DNA of 42,085 bases from contig JASGCX010000005.1 of the NCBI GenBank assembly GCA_030053925.1, positions 1 through 42,085 of the forward strand, in the 5' to 3' direction. Positions 25,225-33,563 of this stretch are shown one piece after another (position 1 is the stretch's first letter; every line of letters begins with the position of its first letter). The position numbers and the translations under genes were made by a program. This stretch comes from Flavobacterium sp. GTDB lineage: Bacteria; Bacteroidota; Bacteroidia; Chitinophagales; Chitinophagaceae. The notes below the pieces were generated by a model, which ran no database searches, was not told where the DNA came from, and saw only the letters and a list, made by a program, of their open reading frames with translations.

Positions 25225-25610
25225 GGCACTGTTTTAAAATGTATGCTGCGTTTTAAGCAGTATTTCGGTAATGAATATAAGCTTTAATAATTCCATAGTG
25301 CATATCATCTTTCTTTGAAAAGCAAACAGTTTCTCTACTTAATCGTTTTAAATGTGTTCTAAAATCTCTATTCTTTCTTTCAATATGTGTTGTCTTTCTT
25401 TTTGAGATAATGTGCTTCTCTTTTGGCATATACTTTTTTGTACTATTTCCATTCATCTGTGCAATATTTTTCAACTTCCAAATGACTTAGCTTCTTGAGT
25501 AATGCTTTACAACTTTTGTCATCTCTTTTACCAATTTGAAAGGCTAATTTTTTCATCGTTTCCTCGCCGTTTCTTGTATTTTATACTAGCATACATTTTA
25601 AAACAGTACC
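25225..25610 (-). mobile_element. Collapsed IS1-family element with intact terminal inverted repeats
   Basis: Near-perfect terminal repeats: the 20-base core ACTGTTTTAAAATGTATGCT at 25228-25247 is matched exactly by its complement at 25588-25607, with GG/CC ends at 25225 and 25610. Between them is only the last part of insB, so the 386-bp element is about half the usual IS1 length; insA and the start of insB are deleted. Flanking bases match poorly as a target duplication (6 of 9). The right end carries the stop codon of the adjacent methyltransferase. The stretch 25127-25224 between Fic and the element has no gene. Confidence 0.8.
25253..25556 (-). pseudogene. IS1-family InsB transposase remnant
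   Basis: From 25556 the minus strand reads MKKLAFQIGKRDDKS, CKALLKKLSHLEVEKYCTDEW, then a stop, a one-base shift, and MPKEKHIISKRKTTHIERKN and FRTHLKRLSRETVCFSKKDDMHYGIIKAYIHY. This is the C-terminal half of IS1 InsB (compare the typical SKRxTxxIERxNLxxRxxLxRLxRKxLxFSKS). A nonsense codon and a frameshift add to the internal deletion, so no transposase can be made. Confidence 0.8.
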
Positions 25611-26593
25611 AAAATTTTTCTAAGTGCATTTGCTACATGCCACATTAATACAGGTGGTACAGCATTGCCAATTGCTCTATATTGTCTATTCTCTGAAACT
25701 ATGTCTAACCTAAAACTTTCTGGAAATGATTGAATTCTTGCAGCCTCTCTTGGTGTTAATCTTCTATAGCGTTCATCAATCATCAAAACAGGGTCGGTAC
25801 CATTTAAGCTAACTTTTGCAAGATGTGAACTAATTGTGTTGCATGGCTGCTCTAAATCTTGTACTCTGCCTTTGTTCATTTTTTCACGAACTCTCAACAT
25901 TCCATCAACAGCTTTTTGACTAAAAAACCATTTATCATCTTTGTTTGCTTTTTTATCTATTACTTGTTTTAGTTTAATCTTTGAACCGTTTAAAGTATTT
26001 GGAAGTGGAAACCGAAAATTGAAATAGTCGTCGAAATCTCTGAACCCAACAATAAATACTCTTTCTCTTTTTTGCGGAATGCCAAATTCAGAGGAATTTA
26101 AAAGCCTATAATGAATATGATAACCTACGTTTTCAAATTCTTTTACAATCATTGGAAAAGCTTTGCCTCCATTTGCAGAAAGTAAACCCTTTACATTTTC
26201 TCCAATAAAAAAACGAGGTTGTTTTTCTTTTAAAACTTTAACCATTTCAAAAAACAATTTTCCACGTTCATCTTTATATCCTAATCTCGGCGGATTTTGA
26301 GCAATAATTGAAAATGATTGACAAGGAAATCCCCCTAATAAAATATCATGGTCAGGCAATTCACTTGCTACAATATCTCTTACATCCTTTAACTCACATT
26401 TATGTGAGAAATTGCTGTTATAAATTTGAGTTGCATAGCTATCATTGTCAGCAGCATAAACAACTTCAAATGGCAATTGGGGATATTGTTTTTCAAGGAA
26501 ATTAAAGTCTCCTTGAATTCCTAAATCCATGCCACCGCATCCACAAAATAGTGAGGCAACTTTTATTTTTTCCAAATTAGTAGCTTGGTCCAT
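25598..26593 (-). CDS. DNA (cytosine-5) methyltransferase (first of two)
   Basis: The 331-residue enzyme methylates cytosine C5 in a specific sequence, protecting it from the neighbouring nuclease. Motif I is VASLFCGCGGMDLG (11-25), motif IV GGFPCQSFS with catalytic C91, motif VI GENVKG (E132), motif VIII QKRERVFIVGF, motif IX RRLTPREAARIQSFPESF, and motif X AIGNAVPPVL. A target-recognition stretch lies between VIII and IX. Its start lies inside the end of the nuclease gene (31-bp overlap), so it is translated with it. Its last residues and stop come from the IS1 terminal repeat, so the native C-terminus was slightly altered. The sequence shares motifs but little else with the second methyltransferase, so target sites probably differ. 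Confidence 0.95.
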   Translation of the reverse strand: MDQATNLEKIKVASLFCGCGGMDLGIQGDFNFLEKQYPQLPFEVVYAADNDSYATQIYNSNFSHKCELKDVRDIVASELPDHDILLGGFPCQSFSIIAQNPPRLGYKDERGKLFFEMVKVLKEKQPRFFIGENVKGLLSANGGKAFPMIVKEFENVGYHIHYRLLNSSEFGIPQKRERVFIVGFRDFDDYFNFRFPLPNTLNGSKIKLKQVIDKKANKDDKWFFSQKAVDGMLRVREKMNKGRVQDLEQPCNTISSHLAKVSLNGTDPVLMIDERYRRLTPREAARIQSFPESFRLDIVSENRQYRAIGNAVPPVLMWHVANALRKILVLF

Positions 26594-27972
26594 TCTCCTG
26601 ATTTTTCGGTGAATATTATATCAGCTCCATTTCTGGGTGACATTTTAATAATATCGTTTTTGTAGTTTCCTACAGGGTCTTTTAAAATAAATAGTTTTCG
26701 TTCATGCTTACTAATCATTAAACGATAAACAAAATAGTTGTCTCGAAGAGTTTCCGCAGTCGACCATTCATTAGGGGTCAAATGGAAATTGTAAAAACCT
26801 AATGATTTACTACTAATAGTTGATTTAACTTCAATGTATCTCTTTTTAGCATCGAGCTCAACACTTTGAATATCGTAACCTACAGCAAATGAGGTTGGGA
26901 TTTTCTTAATAAGATGTATTAAATCTTCACGACCACCTTGCTTAACTCTCATGCTTTCGTGACCTACAATAAGATTTTCTCCAAAGTCCCCAATCTCTTT
27001 AGTGTGTTTAACATTATCAGGGTCAAAGGCTTCTTCTAAATCTGAAATTGCATTGGCGATTAATTGGCTATAATCATCTTCCTCAATCCCCAAATATTTA
27101 AGTACATCAGTTTTAAATAAGTTTTTCCCTAAATCAGTATTAACATAAGTGAACCAATGATCTTCAATTGGTTTTAAGACATTAACAGGAATGTCTGTTC
27201 CAAAGAGTATATCATATTCAGAAAACCATAGATTACTTTGTAAAAATGCAGTAATTGTTTCTCTGTCTCTCCAATTTATAAAATAGTTTGAGGCATGTTG
27301 AACTAATAAATCCGCAATCACCATATAGTCAAGAATATCACCTGCGTACCTAATAACATCACCTTGCCAATCTAAATCAATTTTATTATTGCGATTTTGC
27401 AAAATTCTTTCAACAACTTCATCAGGATTGCAGTTATCTCTTGTTACTCTTAGGTCATTATAAATAAAGTGTGTCGCTTCTGCTTTATTTAGTGAAAATC
27501 TATTGCCCGTAAGTTTTTCACCAGCTTCTAATACTTTCAAAAAATATTGGGCTGGTTTAAACTTTATGCCATTATCAATAACTTCTTTTAGTTTGTAAGA
27601 TTTGATATGTCCGCCAGGATATTGAAAATAAAAAAGGAAATACTTAAAGAATTGTACTAAGTCTTGCTCATTGGCAAGTTTTATTGCAATTTCACTAGCT
27701 TTAGAAATTTTGTTAATATTATCTTCTTCTATCAAACCAAACAGTGCCGCAATTTCTGTACGCCAGTTGTCTATAGTTTTATCATCTTTAGTTGCATTAC
27801 CAGTGTATAATCGTATTGCATTAAATAACTGCTCATTAAAATTGTCTAATGGCAGTGTATTTAATTTTGAAATTTCTGTTGAAACATACAAAAGCACATT
27901 CTCGATATCGTTTTTAAATCGAGGACGAACTTGATGAAGTCGAAAAAAATATTGTTCTTCTATTTTATACAT
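26563..27972 (-). CDS. Putative type II restriction endonuclease with DUF3883 / PD-(D/E)XK domain
   Basis: A 469-residue protein between the two methyltransferase genes. Residues 1-310 are mostly helical and not recognised; FSLNKAEATHFIYNDLRVTRD (159-179) may be a winged-helix-like DNA-reading part. Residues 325-440 resemble DUF3883, a PD-(D/E)XK nuclease fold: GDFGENLIVGHE (E332), GYDIQSV (D367) and RYIEVKST (E381, K383) supply the expected catalytic set. The ATG overlaps the end of the second methyltransferase by 8 bp, and its own end overlaps the first by 31 bp. That tight coupling, with m5C methyltransferases on both sides, makes a restriction role the best reading. The site and cutting pattern are unknown. 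Confidence 0.75.
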   Translation of the reverse strand: MYKIEEQYFFRLHQVRPRFKNDIENVLLYVSTEISKLNTLPLDNFNEQLFNAIRLYTGNATKDDKTIDNWRTEIAALFGLIEEDNINKISKASEIAIKLANEQDLVQFFKYFLFYFQYPGGHIKSYKLKEVIDNGIKFKPAQYFLKVLEAGEKLTGNRFSLNKAEATHFIYNDLRVTRDNCNPDEVVERILQNRNNKIDLDWQGDVIRYAGDILDYMVIADLLVQHASNYFINWRDRETITAFLQSNLWFSEYDILFGTDIPVNVLKPIEDHWFTYVNTDLGKNLFKTDVLKYLGIEEDDYSQLIANAISDLEEAFDPDNVKHTKEIGDFGENLIVGHESMRVKQGGREDLIHLIKKIPTSFAVGYDIQSVELDAKKRYIEVKSTISSKSLGFYNFHLTPNEWSTAETLRDNYFVYRLMISKHERKLFILKDPVGNYKNDIIKMSPRNGADIIFTEKSGEWTKLLIWKK

Positions 27973-29011
27973 CTAAATACTGTTTAAGTTGAATTGCTAA
28001 ATGTTTAGCTAATAAAGGCGGAACAGCATTTCCAACTTGTTTATACTGGCTTGTTTTACTTCCTAAGAAAATAAAACTATCTGGAAAAGATTGAATTCTT
28101 GCACTTTCCCTAACTGTTGGGATACGATTGTATTTGTAATGAAAATGGTGTCTGTGTCCTGTATCTATTGTGAAACTTGGTTTCTTACTATTTAGCCTTG
28201 TCCATGCAATATTTACATTTCTTGTTTTTTGTAAACTTAGTGGTAAGTTTTTATAGTTCCCTCCATCAGGAACCATAGAAATTATTTCAACCGTTTGTTC
28301 ACTATGGTTAGTTATTTCGTGGTTGAAAATACCTTTTGAACCTTTGCGAATGTCTTCTTGATATTTAGATTTTGGAATAACATTATATCCTGTTCCATCA
28401 GTTATTGATTTTTCTGGCAAGTCTGATATCGCTTCTTTGGCTGAAATTAATTCCTTGATTTGTGATGTAGGGAAGACAAATTCTTTATTATTCCTTATTC
28501 CTACAAAAAAAGCTCTTTTTCTGTTTTGAGGAACGCCATATTCAGAAGCCATTAAAACTTTATAAACGACTTTATAACCTAATTTTTCAAAGTCTTTGAT
28601 AATATTATCTTTTACAATGCCTTGCCCCATAGAAACAATATTAGGAACATTCTCCATTAAAAAAGCTTGTGGTTTATAAAATTCAACAAAACTCACAAAC
28701 GATTTATAAAGTTTATTCCGTTCATCATTTACAATTCTTTTTCCTGCTATTGAAAATCCTTGACATGGTGGACCACCTATTATTACATCAATGTCAGTGA
28801 CACCTGTTTTTTTACTTATTTGTTTGGGTGTTTCTATAAATAAATCAGCTACAATTCCTTTTGAATTCTTATGGCTGTTTTCAAAAGTTGCAATTGCATC
28901 TTTCCAATGGTCAATGCCTAAAACAACATCGTAACCAGCCTCAATAAAGCCATAAGAAAGTCCGCCACATCCTGAAAATAAATCTATAACCCTGTTCTTC
29001 TTTTTAATCAT
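27965..29011 (-). CDS. DNA (cytosine-5) methyltransferase (second of two, first in the operon)
   Basis: The 348-residue enzyme is complete: motif I VIDLFSGCGGLSYGF (8-22), motif IV GGPPCQGFS with C83, motif VI MENVPN (119-124), motif VIII PQNRKRAFFVG, motif IX PTVRESARIQSFPDSF and motif X QVGNAVPPLLAKHL. It is promoter-proximal, so methylation can precede nuclease synthesis after the operon enters a new cell. Two distinct m5C enzymes with one nuclease usually mean an asymmetric target with one methylase for each strand. The codon choice is AT-richer than in flanking core genes, consistent with acquisition. No Vsr repair gene or C-protein gene is present. Confidence 0.95.
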   Translation of the reverse strand: MIKKKNRVIDLFSGCGGLSYGFIEAGYDVVLGIDHWKDAIATFENSHKNSKGIVADLFIETPKQISKKTGVTDIDVIIGGPPCQGFSIAGKRIVNDERNKLYKSFVSFVEFYKPQAFLMENVPNIVSMGQGIVKDNIIKDFEKLGYKVVYKVLMASEYGVPQNRKRAFFVGIRNNKEFVFPTSQIKELISAKEAISDLPEKSITDGTGYNVIPKSKYQEDIRKGSKGIFNHEITNHSEQTVEIISMVPDGGNYKNLPLSLQKTRNVNIAWTRLNSKKPSFTIDTGHRHHFHYKYNRIPTVRESARIQSFPDSFIFLGSKTSQYKQVGNAVPPLLAKHLAIQLKQYLDV

Positions 29012-29928: not shown

Positions 29929-30184
29929 AATTTTTTAAATTTAGATAGCTAAAATAAAAATTATCATTTTATACACTTTAGTAAAAATTGCTAAAAATAT
30001 GTTAATTATTGCCTTGCCATTTTGTTGCCTTTTGCAAGCATTTACAAAGCATGTTTTTGGTGGCAAAAGCCCAAAAAATGCCTTTTTAACCTGTAATAAT
30101 GCCCAAAAAATGGGTATTTGCTATGGTAGAAGCTATTATTTGCCCCAAGCAATGCCTAATTGTGTAGCAGCAATCATTGCTCGG

Positions 30185-30387
30185 CTTGGGGCAGTGGTTA
30201 AATATTTTAAGCAACGCTTGCTTGGGTTGAAGCAGTGATTGCCCGGTGTGTGGCAATGGTTAAAAATGTTGGGGCAATAATTAATTGAGCTAAAGCAGCA
30301 ATTGCTTGGCTTAGTGCAATGGTTAAATATTTTAAGCAATAGTTGCTGTGCATGAAGCAGGTGTTGCTCGGTTTAGAGCGGTGATTT
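30185..30387. repeat. Degenerate 62-bp tandem repeat
   Basis: Three units (30185-30246, 30247-30309, 30310-30371; 62, 63 and 62 bp) plus a partial fourth, each with GCAATGGTTAAATATTTTAA-like sequence followed by GCAATnnTTGC and AAGCAGTGnTTGCTCGG-like parts. Inside the units a roughly 21-bp sub-period starting GCA is visible. Short frames cross it on both strands but none looks like a protein. The surrounding 29929-30184 and 30388-30479 hold no gene. Confidence 0.65.
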
Positions 30388-30538: not shown

Positions 30539-32464
30539 TTACCAGTTTACAGTAACACCTAGGTTAAACAATGCAGGTAAAGCATTGTAACCAAGTACAT
30601 CAAAAAACTGTTTGTTGGTAATATTCTGAGCATCGGCAAATAGTTTTACTTGCTTGTTTATTTGGTAAGAGGCTGTTGCAGCCATTATAAAATAAGCATC
30701 CAAGCCTACATCGGCTTTTGCGTAGCCGCCTACATCTTTACGGTCGCTTACATATTTACCAGTTAAACTCACATACAACTTAGCTAAAGGTTGTACACCT
30801 ACCGTTAAGTTGGCTACATGCTTTGGCCTTCGCAATAAATAATTGTAAGTAACAGTGTCTTTATTAGTTACACGGTTTTGCGATGTTTCTTCACCTATAA
30901 GCAATGTGTAATTACCGGTAATAGTCAGTTTTTCAACTGGCTTTAGGGTTAGTTCGTACTCTAAGCCATTTACTTGTTGTTGAATGTAGTTGAAGTATTT
31001 AAACGTGATGTAGTTGTAATCTATACCATTATTTATCTTACGGTTAAAGTACACCAAACGAGTATTTACAAGTTTGTTTTGATATTGTACACCTGCCTCG
31101 TAGTTAATAGATTCTTCGGGCAATAATTTATTATTAAGGCTTAGTTGATACAAGCCTGGTGCTTTAAAACCAGTAGCAATGCTGCCAAAAATTCGCCAAT
31201 TATCATTAAAATTATAAGCAGGGTTAAAGGTATAAGTGTAGTTAAAATTGTAGCGACTATGTGTGTTTAATCTACCACCAAGTTCTACCGATAAATGCTT
31301 TTTGGCATCAATAAAACTTAGCGATGCATACATGCTTGTTTGGCTTACAGATGTATCTCTAAAAGTGCTGTTATATGACCCAAAAGATGATACACTTTTA
31401 TACGCACTATTGTAGCTACCATATCTATAATCTGCACCACTTAGCAAGTTAAAACCTGCGCCAAGTTTTACATTGGTATATAACTCTGCAAACTGGCTTG
31501 CAGCGTTATAATTGTTTAACGAAAAATATGTGGCACCTGCGGTGTAATTATCGTCGTACAAGCGTTTTAGCTTGGTGTATTGGTAATTGCCCACCAAGGT
31601 TACTACATCGTTTTTAAAGTTAAAACCAGCACCACTAATGGCACTTTTGTTATTAATGAAGTAGGCTTTTTTATCGGCAAATACACCAGCATCAATATCC
31701 GATTTGTATTGGCTAAACATGGTAAATGCTTTAAAGCTCAATTGTTGATTGGCTTGAAATTGTACCGTTGCATTTGCCACATTACCATTGTAACCATCTT
31801 TATCAAAATTACCAGTACCAGTAGCATCATTAGCACTGCTAATGCCGCTTGTGGTTAGCTTGGCATAGCGAGCTGTGTAGGTAAATTTATTTAGCTTACC
31901 ATACAACTGCACATTGGCTTTGTAGGTATTAAAGCTACCAGCAGTTAGGGTGGCTTTTCCTTCAAAAGGCTTGTTAATAGTGCTTTTCACGGTAATGATG
32001 TTTACCACACCAGCTACCGCATCGCTACCATACAAGGTACTTTGTGCGCCTTTACAAATTTCTATACGCTCAACATCGTTAATAGAAAACAAGTTCAAGT
32101 CGTAGTCATTGGTAATGGTACTTGGTTCATTTACAGGTATCCCATCAATCAGTATCAAGGTTCTACCAGCACTAGCACCACGCATGTACAAGGTTTGTAC
32201 GCTACCAGGGTTGTTAAAAGCGCCATTAATTACAAGGCCTGCTTGTTCGTTTAGCACTTGCGCTACCGATTTGCCAGTGTTTTGCTCAATTTGTGCTTTG
32301 GTAATTACAGTTACTACTTTACCCGTAGAATTTTGTTTTTGCGCCACTTTGTTGGCGGTAACAATTACATCGTTTAGCTGTTTGGTAGCAAGAGTGTCTT
32401 GCTGTGCAAGCAATACCGCTGCACTAAGCAATGTTGTTGAAAGGAGCGTTAATTTTTTGCTCAT
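30539..32464 (-). CDS. BtuB-like TonB-dependent receptor (cobalamin/corrinoid uptake)
   Basis: The 641-residue outer-membrane receptor has a signal peptide (LLSAAVLLAQ). A TonB box-like segment (LNDVIVTANK) leads into the plug domain: TGKVVTVITKAQIEQNTGKSVAQVLNEQAGL, MRGASAGRTLILIDGIPVNEP, and DVERIEICKGAQSTLYGSDAVAGVVNIIT. The 22-strand barrel follows, ending FNLGVTVNW with an aromatic last residue. It takes up a bulky ligand using TonB energy. A cobalamin riboswitch in its leader identifies the ligand as vitamin B12 or another corrinoid. It is a single gene: the next one downstream lies beyond a terminator. Confidence 0.92.
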   Translation of the reverse strand: MSKKLTLLSTTLLSAAVLLAQQDTLATKQLNDVIVTANKVAQKQNSTGKVVTVITKAQIEQNTGKSVAQVLNEQAGLVINGAFNNPGSVQTLYMRGASAGRTLILIDGIPVNEPSTITNDYDLNLFSINDVERIEICKGAQSTLYGSDAVAGVVNIITVKSTINKPFEGKATLTAGSFNTYKANVQLYGKLNKFTYTARYAKLTTSGISSANDATGTGNFDKDGYNGNVANATVQFQANQQLSFKAFTMFSQYKSDIDAGVFADKKAYFINNKSAISGAGFNFKNDVVTLVGNYQYTKLKRLYDDNYTAGATYFSLNNYNAASQFAELYTNVKLGAGFNLLSGADYRYGSYNSAYKSVSSFGSYNSTFRDTSVSQTSMYASLSFIDAKKHLSVELGGRLNTHSRYNFNYTYTFNPAYNFNDNWRIFGSIATGFKAPGLYQLSLNNKLLPEESINYEAGVQYQNKLVNTRLVYFNRKINNGIDYNYITFKYFNYIQQQVNGLEYELTLKPVEKLTITGNYTLLIGEETSQNRVTNKDTVTYNYLLRRPKHVANLTVGVQPLAKLYVSLTGKYVSDRKDVGGYAKADVGLDAYFIMAATASYQINKQVKLFADAQNITNKQFFDVLGYNALPALFNLGVTVNW

Positions 32465-32598
32465 TGTCTTTTAATTTTTAAAAGTGTAACAATGAGCTTT
32501 CAGGACAATAAAAAAACGGAGAAACATAAAGGGCCGTCTGCAGCAAGCCTTTTACATTCCATGCTTTTCACCCGAAAGCCGTGAATGATTTTGTAAAA

Positions 32599-33022
32599 GG
32601 CAGGTCTTCTGACTCGTTCTCTGCTAAAGCCTTCCCATTCTCTATTTGAACAGTGGCATCATTTTTAGCAGTGGTGAAAATGTAAAATGGTAAACGTCAA
32701 TTAATGTCTCACGTTTCAGGTTAAACATTGCACGTTAAACATTTCACGTTAAACATTTCACGTTAAACATTTCACGTTAAACATTTTACGTTAAACATTT
32801 CACGTTTCACATTTCACGTTAAACATTTCACATTTCACATTTAACGTTAAACATTTCACGTCTCACGTCTCACATTTCACGTTAAACATTTCACGTTTCA
32901 CATTTCACATTTCACGTCTCACATTTCACATTTCACGTCTCACATTTCACGTCTCACGTTATGAACTTACAGCTACGGGGATAGTTTTGGATTTTCACCA
33001 AATTCCCTTTTAATCTTGGGGC
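32599..33022 (-). ncRNA. Cobalamin riboswitch with a repeat-expanded variable arm
   Basis: Both halves of the B12 element are readable on the minus strand. The 5' half (33022 down to 32967) has AAAAGGGAA, GGTGAAAATCC, a CCCCG and GCTGTAA. The 3' half has GCCACTG (32657-32651), GGGAAGGC (about 32636-32629) and the B12 box AGTCAGAAGACCTGCC (32614-32599), an exact consensus match. The two are 309 bases apart where a variable stem of a few tens of bases is usual, and a heptamer array fills the gap. Downstream, a GACGG/CCGTT stem with a T-run (32540-32505) is a candidate terminator in the expression platform, and a longer CCTTTTACATTC/GAATG-TGTAAAAGG pairing (32550-32600) could be the alternative fold. 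Confidence 0.88.
32710..32961. repeat. Array of 36 heptamers in perfect phase
   Basis: 252 bp divide exactly into 36 seven-base units with no insertion or deletion. Plus-strand units are mainly CACGTTA, AACATTT, CACATTT, CACGTTT and CACGTCT, with a few single-base variants. The first part alternates CACGTTA/AACATTT (a 14-bp period). The second part mixes CACATTT and CACGTCT. It lies within the riboswitch transcript. Confidence 0.92.
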
Positions 33023-33563
33023 AAATGTTTTTGTAACAAGCGGCAGAAATACTATTCAACTTTGGTGTAGCCTGTGCCCAGTTAGCCAGGCATCTGCACT
33101 TGTACGTTTAGTACACTGTGCTGCTTTTATCAAAGCGTAGTAGTATTTACATTGCGTAAGGCTACAATATTTTTCACCTCTAGAACCAAATACAATGCAA
33201 ATGTGTAGGCTAGCTGCCTAATGCACAAATAAGGTTTTCAACAAAGTAGTAACGCAGCAACTAAGCAAGGGGGTAATTAGCAGGTGCATAGCATAAAGGC
33301 AGTTTTATAAAATTGCTGCTATACACCTACAAGCAGCCGCTTAACTGATGCGTATTAAAATACAGGTTTACACTGCCAACAGTGGGCGAAAATTGGATAA
33401 CTATGGTGTTGTAGATAATACCGAGTGCAGTGTGAGAACAGGAACCAAAGCGATGTAGGGGCGGGCCTATTGTCTGTTAACTATAAACTTTCTTCCTGCA
33501 CATTTTTCACTTTGAACTATTGATTACATTGCCGATAAATACTACAAACAAAACCATTACTAC
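33023..33563. other. Intergenic region upstream of the riboswitch
   Basis: No coding frame supported. It must hold the receptor promoter (minus strand), but no good TAnnTTTG box was found. An 11-bp stem with one mismatch (GGTGCATAGCA at 33283-33293 with TGCTATACACC at 33317-33327) encloses a second self-complementary tract, GCAGTTTTATAAAATTGC. It could be a terminator-less structured RNA or an operator. Confidence 0.4.

Follow-up and report, generated by a model that had tools for sequence, protein, structure and literature searches.

The nearest precedent that we found for the locus described here is the pneumococcal trp leader, in which a BOX element lies between two T-box riboswitches and the leader is thought to keep working (PMC3049150). 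There, as here, a dispersed repeat is lodged in a riboswitch leader; BOX lies outside each aptamer, whereas the repeats of our locus occupy the variable arms of a single aptamer. Intergenic heptamer direct repeats such as TAACTGA are described from Beggiatoaceae, Cyanobacteria and some Bacteroidetes (PMC4679880). These too are tandem 7-bp units scattered through a bacterial genome, but the unit of our locus differs (GTSANNN), has hairpin-forming inverted units and sits in a riboswitch arm.

For cobalamin riboswitches, PMC10907184 assigns selectivity between two cobalamin forms to two peripheral domains, and the regions swapped in PMC9600662 (P2-L2 and the P6 accessory region) both carry inserts in our riboswitch. 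In the titles and abstract openings searched, a scope with most subscription journals outside it, we found no description of repeats inside a cobalamin riboswitch arm. With the RF00174 kissing-loop type bearing a P6 accessory region, the locus has in common the B12 box, P1, P3, P4, P6, P7, P13, L5–L13 and a place before a B12 receptor gene. It departs from that type in two arms lengthened by dispersed repeats, P2 (179 nt against a median of 29) and the P7-to-P10 stretch, which measures 310 nt here and does not exceed 157 nt in any of the other 106 riboswitches compared.

A conserved riboswitch core upstream of a btuB-like gene

The element is, on sequence and covariation, a cobalamin riboswitch on the minus strand of the window (the whole 42,085-nt stretch of DNA that was analysed), 5′ of a BtuB-like receptor gene (Table 1). 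A position before such a gene had been proposed in a first-pass annotation, and a TonB-dependent receptor gene does lie downstream; among NCBIfam models it matches TonB-B12 best (E 6.5e-66, 223 bits, under the model cut-off of 599.7). Just 3′ of this gene is a second tandem repeat (30177–30376, period 62, 3.2 copies, 65% matches). Elsewhere in the window (25598–29011), a BpuJI-like restriction endonuclease gene stands between two C5 cytosine methylase genes, a probable restriction-modification system.

Table 1 Features of the riboswitch locus, in order of window position
Feature	Position	Strand	Basis or remark
BtuB-like TonB-dependent receptor, 641 aa	30539..32464	-	Pfam barrel and plug domains
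TGTAAAAGG, complementary to 32600-32592	32548..32556	-	Possible competitor for P1 3′ strand; putative switch
P13 hairpin, loop L13 CGGG 32574-32571	32563..32579	-	All alignment cells paired
P1 3′ strand: TACAA 32595-32591, GCC 32601-32599	32591..32601	-	End of B12 box; partner of TTGTA/GGT
B12 box region AGTCAGAAGACCTGCC	32599..32614	-	Carries 3′ strands of P6 and P3; 15/15 conserved positions
P7 3′ strand GAAC	32616..32619	-	Covariation alignment
P9, CTGCTAAA 32671-32664 with TTTAGCAG 32628-32621	32621..32671	-	Predicted probability 0.97
P10, GCC 32657-32655 with GGC 32631-32629	Inside P9	-	Predicted probability 0.96
GCCACTG...GGGAAGGC	Enclosed by P9, 32621..32671	-	Sequence
P8 arm, 291 nt: array plus inverted units ACGTTTACCATTTTACATTTTCAC at 3′ end	32672..32962	-	Sequence, folding
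Heptamer array, 36 units of YGTGARA type, 9/36 TGTTTAA	32707..32958	-	Repeat detection and unit listing
5′ core: P3 strand AGG 33008-33006, P4, L5 CCCCG 32980-32976, P6 strand 32972-32970, P7 strand GTTC 32966-32963	32963..33008	-	
Residual P2 base stem, 3′ side TTTGCCCCAAGA	33014..33025	-	9/11 pairs with 33184-33173, by eye
Copy of the ~114-nt dispersed repeat filling the P2 arm	33025..33140	-	E 6.4e-24 against a model of other copies
Residual P2 base stem, 5′ side TCTAGAGGTGAA	33173..33184	-	By eye
P1 5′ strand: TTGTA 33195-33191, GGT 33187-33185	33185..33195	-	True 5′ edge of aptamer
TTTG just before P1	33198..33201	-	Conserved in relatives

The first-pass annotation had read both halves of a B12 aptamer and a B12 box at this place. 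Of the positions that 90% or more of 107 distinct riboswitches conserve, the window matches 16 of 16 in the 5′ core and 15 of 15 around the B12 box. The strand is as proposed: RF00174 matches the minus strand twice, once per half, at 33038–32842 (32.0 bits, cut-off 31.5) and at 32787–32582 (25.0 bits, under that cut-off). Going by the coordinates, each match must borrow array sequence for its missing half; in the first, the one whose alignment was inspected, a wrong 5′ strand is used, the 3′ half contains array sequence and the alignment, running from 33038, has many non-pairs in its 5′ helix. Of the two outcomes named beforehand as refuting the proposal, namely no cobalamin match even with the repeat removed, and related strains in which the repeat lies outside a complete riboswitch, neither turned up. 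Besides this element, a single cobalamin riboswitch was found in the genome (L094, G000:C25:44326-44527); it precedes a 386-aa open reading frame that by eye resembles the small subunit of class I ribonucleotide reductase.

We aligned the core of the window with those of 14 relatives, both inserts removed. Across these 15 sequences, standard pairs fill 93.9% of 477 cells (P1, P3, P4, P6, P7, P13 and L5–L13), against 28.8–45.9% when partners are slid by 1–3 columns. The covariation score is 0.235 versus 0.096 in shuffles, none of 500 shuffles scoring as high, and two-sided changes occur in 10 pairs versus 7.1 in shuffles (24 of 500 as high). P7, the helix that brackets the array, has two-sided changes in all four of its pairs. 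In L5–L13, P6 and almost all of P3 and P13 there is too little variation to lend covariation support; the kissing-loop complementarity CCCG/CGGG is present in 15 of 15 sequences and never varies. The outermost two pairs of P1 are poorly kept, being unpaired in six and nine of the 15. Within the window itself, every pair is standard in the eight helices tested, P1, P3, P4, P6 and P7 among them. The numbers P8–P10 are those that we take these helices to bear.

The 5′ edge of the aptamer

The first-pass annotation ended the element at 33022, which falls short: the 5′ strand of P1 lies farther out, with a second insert in between, and as read from the sequence both that annotation and Rfam place the 5′ end too late. 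Leaders of relatives open with TTTG, a GTA-type strand, TTGGTTC and then a short hairpin and AAAAGGGAA, and the window has a matching block, a 24-nt piece of which is a 96% match to the start of the riboswitch of a relative, G002. In 84 distinct riboswitches, the proposed P1 register pairs 62% of cells, and shifting it lowers this to 26–41%. At its two best positions it shows five and six pair types. The P2 distance given above runs from GGTT to AGGG, and its median comes from 91 riboswitches in which some of the longest distances to the core (L178, L227, L061) may be regex slips, L178 otherwise showing GGTT 22 nt before the core.

By regex, TTTG stands 7–13 nt before GG[TC][TC] in 91 of 107 riboswitches. 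We take the window's copy to be likely part of a promoter -7 element; no sigma-70-type site was found at this TTTG, and no terminator-like site in 32430–33560. The TGTAAAAGG region of the expression platform is largely conserved in the genus.

A heptamer array in the P8 arm

Between GCTGTAA and GCCACTG the sequence reads 309 bases, as the first-pass annotation had counted, and the 252-bp array that it described is there (36 units, minus strand, limits within 3 bp of those it gave). Its suggestion that the break falls in an arm known to vary also holds, the arm being P8 of the P6 accessory region. Distinct unit variants follow one another in order along the array. In the sister species (G009), whose BtuB is 81% identical and whose place as sister to the window has full support on the BtuB tree, the riboswitch has short arms at both P2 and P8, the P8 position holding a short hairpin (GGTTATTG/CAATAACC) between P7 and P9.

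Heptamers of this kind are widespread in the same genome. A four-unit pattern has 86 matches versus one for a reversed control, and a looser pattern 1,411 versus 98. The looser pattern was matched in all six relatives tried, although in one of them, G063, hardly over the control (156 versus 120). Among 15 arrays in 14 other loci of the genome, 13 have an open reading frame to their left, and eight of these 13 start no more than 36 nt from it. An opposite-strand frame of 95–325 aa overlaps 12 of the 15, the repeats leaving that strand stop-free; from these two counts, an intergenic site is likely though unproven. TGTTTAA units are absent from the 29 array stretches printed for these 14 loci.

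Predicted folding with the array in place

The first-pass annotation held that the core may still fold, and both the alignment above and the predictions agree with it. For the aptamer stretch 33010–32605 folded alone with its native array, predicted pairing probabilities are 0.87 for P4, 0.91 for P6 and 0.90 for P7 (P9 and P10, Table 1); these predictions exclude tertiary contacts and ligand. Only 0.44 pairs are expected between the arm and its outside, against a mean of 9.1 in 60 dinucleotide shuffles, one of which was as low, and P7 in the shuffles averages 0.36, four of 60 being at least as high as the native array. When 291-nt stretches from five other arrays of the genome were put in its place on either strand, P7 exceeded 0.5 in two of ten cases and was 0.17 or less in the other eight; the native arm reverse-complemented gave 0.08. 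As two of the ten substitutes keep P7 above 0.5 and four of the 60 shuffles equal or exceed it, the native array is not unique in this respect.

The arm itself folds well, with a z score of -6.3 against dinucleotide shuffles and -28.4 kcal/mol per 100 nt, where 11 other arrays on the same strand range from -1.6 to -20.3. We considered the TGTTTAA units as the sole source of this self-complementarity and rejected the idea: changing all nine to the usual TGTGAAA retains most of the energy of the arm (-73.4 of -82.6), which makes them only a partial source. The native array is thus predicted to fold on itself and spare P6 and P7. Folding of the whole 661-nt leader recovered almost no core, with the native array, with none or with any insert, so the core prediction is valid only for the stretch 33010–32605 alone.

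A dispersed repeat in the P2 arm

By sequence comparison, the two variable arms, P2 and P8, hold two unrelated repeat families. That in P2 is an element of about 114 nt. Residues on either side of it, TCTAGAGGTGAA and TTTGCCCCAAGA, can form nine of 11 pairs, which suggests that the P2 hairpin has kept its base. BLAST over 29 genomes placed the P2 insert at nine other sites in its own genome and at ten in G005, while a match in G002 covers the riboswitch start only. A model built from 17 copies (those of the window, L109 and L177 included), with 95 candidates scored per genome over 39 genomes, counts at least 91 copies in the genome of the window, at least 94 in G005 and at least 93 in G016, these largest counts being lower bounds because of the 95 candidates scored. 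Smaller numbers occur in G022 (54), G019 (22), G023 (21), G021 (7), G009 (5) and G010 (1), and this sequence-model search found none in 30 of the 39. Short, dispersed and in high copy number (at least 91 in its own genome), the element is in these respects MITE- or REP-like. In the 17 copies RNAalifold found no consensus RNA structure, and Rfam had no match for the element in the six loci tried, even at E values as high as 1, its single row being the cobalamin riboswitch of L109. G005 belongs to the same genus and has neither a cobalamin riboswitch nor a close BtuB relative, yet holds its many copies. A module like CTTTGCGTGAAA precedes several copies (L142, L147, L149, L151, L155), perhaps making a composite repeat.

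Searching 131 sequences (130 loci and the window) with a model built from the other copies only gave five matches at E up to 1. Besides the window's, copies lie in the P2 arm of the riboswitches L109 of G022 (3.9e-4) and L177 (1.5e-3); weaker matches in L190 and L222 are positioned outside that arm. A further candidate, in G016, was rejected, as the copy (G016:C1:2901207-2901291) lies just upstream of the btuB riboswitch promoter.

Recurrence in related riboswitches

When genome contigs were scanned with a BtuB alignment, 471 loci encoded a relative, of which the best 80 named ones are all from Bacteroidota by title or close kinship, many being titled Chitinophagaceae. A riboswitch was recognized by motif in 74 of these best 80 loci, plus the window; the full recurrence sample of 132 sequences reduced to the 107 distinct riboswitches used throughout. 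The P7-to-P10 stretch reaches 30 nt or more in 84 of the 107, and 11 of those 84 have significant 7-nt periodicity (a level that no more than 1% of 400 shuffles attained), where about one is expected; one of the 11, L207, is short and weak. Of ten stretches of at least 80 nt, nine are heptamer-based, the exception being L234. A seeming second arm of 316 nt, in L165, was discarded as a false regex start.

In most heptamer arms, GTSA recurs at seven-base intervals on the 5′ side, opposite TCAC on the 3′ side. Two-sided arms of this kind come from Niastella caeni, a Sediminibacterium MAG, a Ferruginibacter MAG and further MAGs, and a one-sided or degenerate pattern is seen in G025, L166 and two Longitalea. 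The fold z scores of nine heptamer arms besides the window's span -1.4 to -7.7, where 31 ordinary arms have a median of -1.7; L173 and L174, among the nine, fold no better than that median. On a BtuB tree of 71 proteins made by a quick method, with 18 of 68 branches open, the ten clear heptamer rows take a minimum of eight changes and the three P2-element rows take three, counts that cannot separate gain from loss.

At a stricter threshold, runs of period 7 are found in P8 in eight of 107 riboswitches (5.1 kb), 3′ of the B12 box in one (15 kb), upstream in five (36 kb, partly coding) and in neither the 60-nt P2 segment nor the P10–11 loop of any. Eight in P8 as against one after the box indicates that P8 is the preferred site of heptamers within the leader, the length of P8 itself being inflated by them. 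By eye, degenerate seven-base tracts such as CAAGTTACAGGTTTCAAG also lie between riboswitch and btuB in six loci of the same genus (L095, L097, L098, L101, L103, L104); in this tract region 3′ of the riboswitch a single locus is over the period-7 threshold.

Discussion

We consider that this is probably a working cobalamin riboswitch whose peripheral arms tolerate self-folding repeats that are mainly passengers, a reading built on sequence and predicted folding. A dispersed element of about 114 nt would have entered the P2 hairpin, and a heptamer array would have expanded in P8, within the P6 accessory region. A helix of the respective arm brackets each insert (the residual P2 stem and P7, in that order). 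With the P8 array folding as a long self-contained hairpin, as predicted, the four-way junction, the B12 box and the L5–L13 kissing loop could still form. B12 binding would then most likely still turn btuB down, and the inserts may have been kept as passengers because they do not misfold the core.

The first-pass annotation saw in the array a slip-prone tuner of vitamin uptake, slippage changing the number of units and thereby shifting folding time, RNA stability or ligand response, so that B12 uptake would vary. A long run of near-identical units within a regulatory RNA, and the recurrence of repeats in the P8 arm of relatives, both suit this idea, as does the loosened corrinoid selectivity that followed swaps of P2-L2 or the P6 accessory region in one riboswitch (PMC9600662). 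We judge it unlikely: the sister species does without an array, and since heptamers are dispersed genome-wide, one in a riboswitch needs no special function. That the inserts instead broke the switch and left btuB constitutive or off, the riboswitch now decaying, seems improbable. There are two large inserts, whole-leader folding fails to recover the core, and the Rfam score is 32 bits as against 78 for the genome's other cobalamin riboswitch and 96.5 for the sister's; but a broken switch should have lost some conserved features, unless the inserts are very recent, so a core intact at every conserved position of both halves, with every pair standard in the eight helices of the window, counts against decay, as does an expression platform conserved in the genus alignment.

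An array length or riboswitch placement produced by draft assembly would be a considerable surprise, even in a genome of 134 contigs with 3.5% contamination and for short tandem repeats, which are easily collapsed or stretched. The array sits on an 82.6-kb contig, its ordered variants speak for a real sequence (unit number could still be off), and heptamer arms appear in further assemblies, those of Niastella caeni and two Longitalea strains among them. The reading of a working switch with tolerant arms is the one that we carry forward. Were it true, it would show how dispersed repeats can join a structured regulatory RNA without destroying it, and would supply natural pairs with and without an insert for probing the role of peripheral arms in B12 riboswitches. 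Since Rfam here reports the element in two pieces and with a misplaced 5′ end, long-armed riboswitches may be under-counted.

More tentatively, and rather doubtfully at present, the cobalamin riboswitch of Chitinophagaceae and their kin may repeatedly recruit self-complementary repeats as replaceable peripheral domains, heptamers as a P8 stem and the ~114-nt element as a P2 arm. The gain, expansion and loss of repeats would then be an ordinary route to a new B12-switch periphery, perhaps with altered corrinoid selectivity or folding kinetics.
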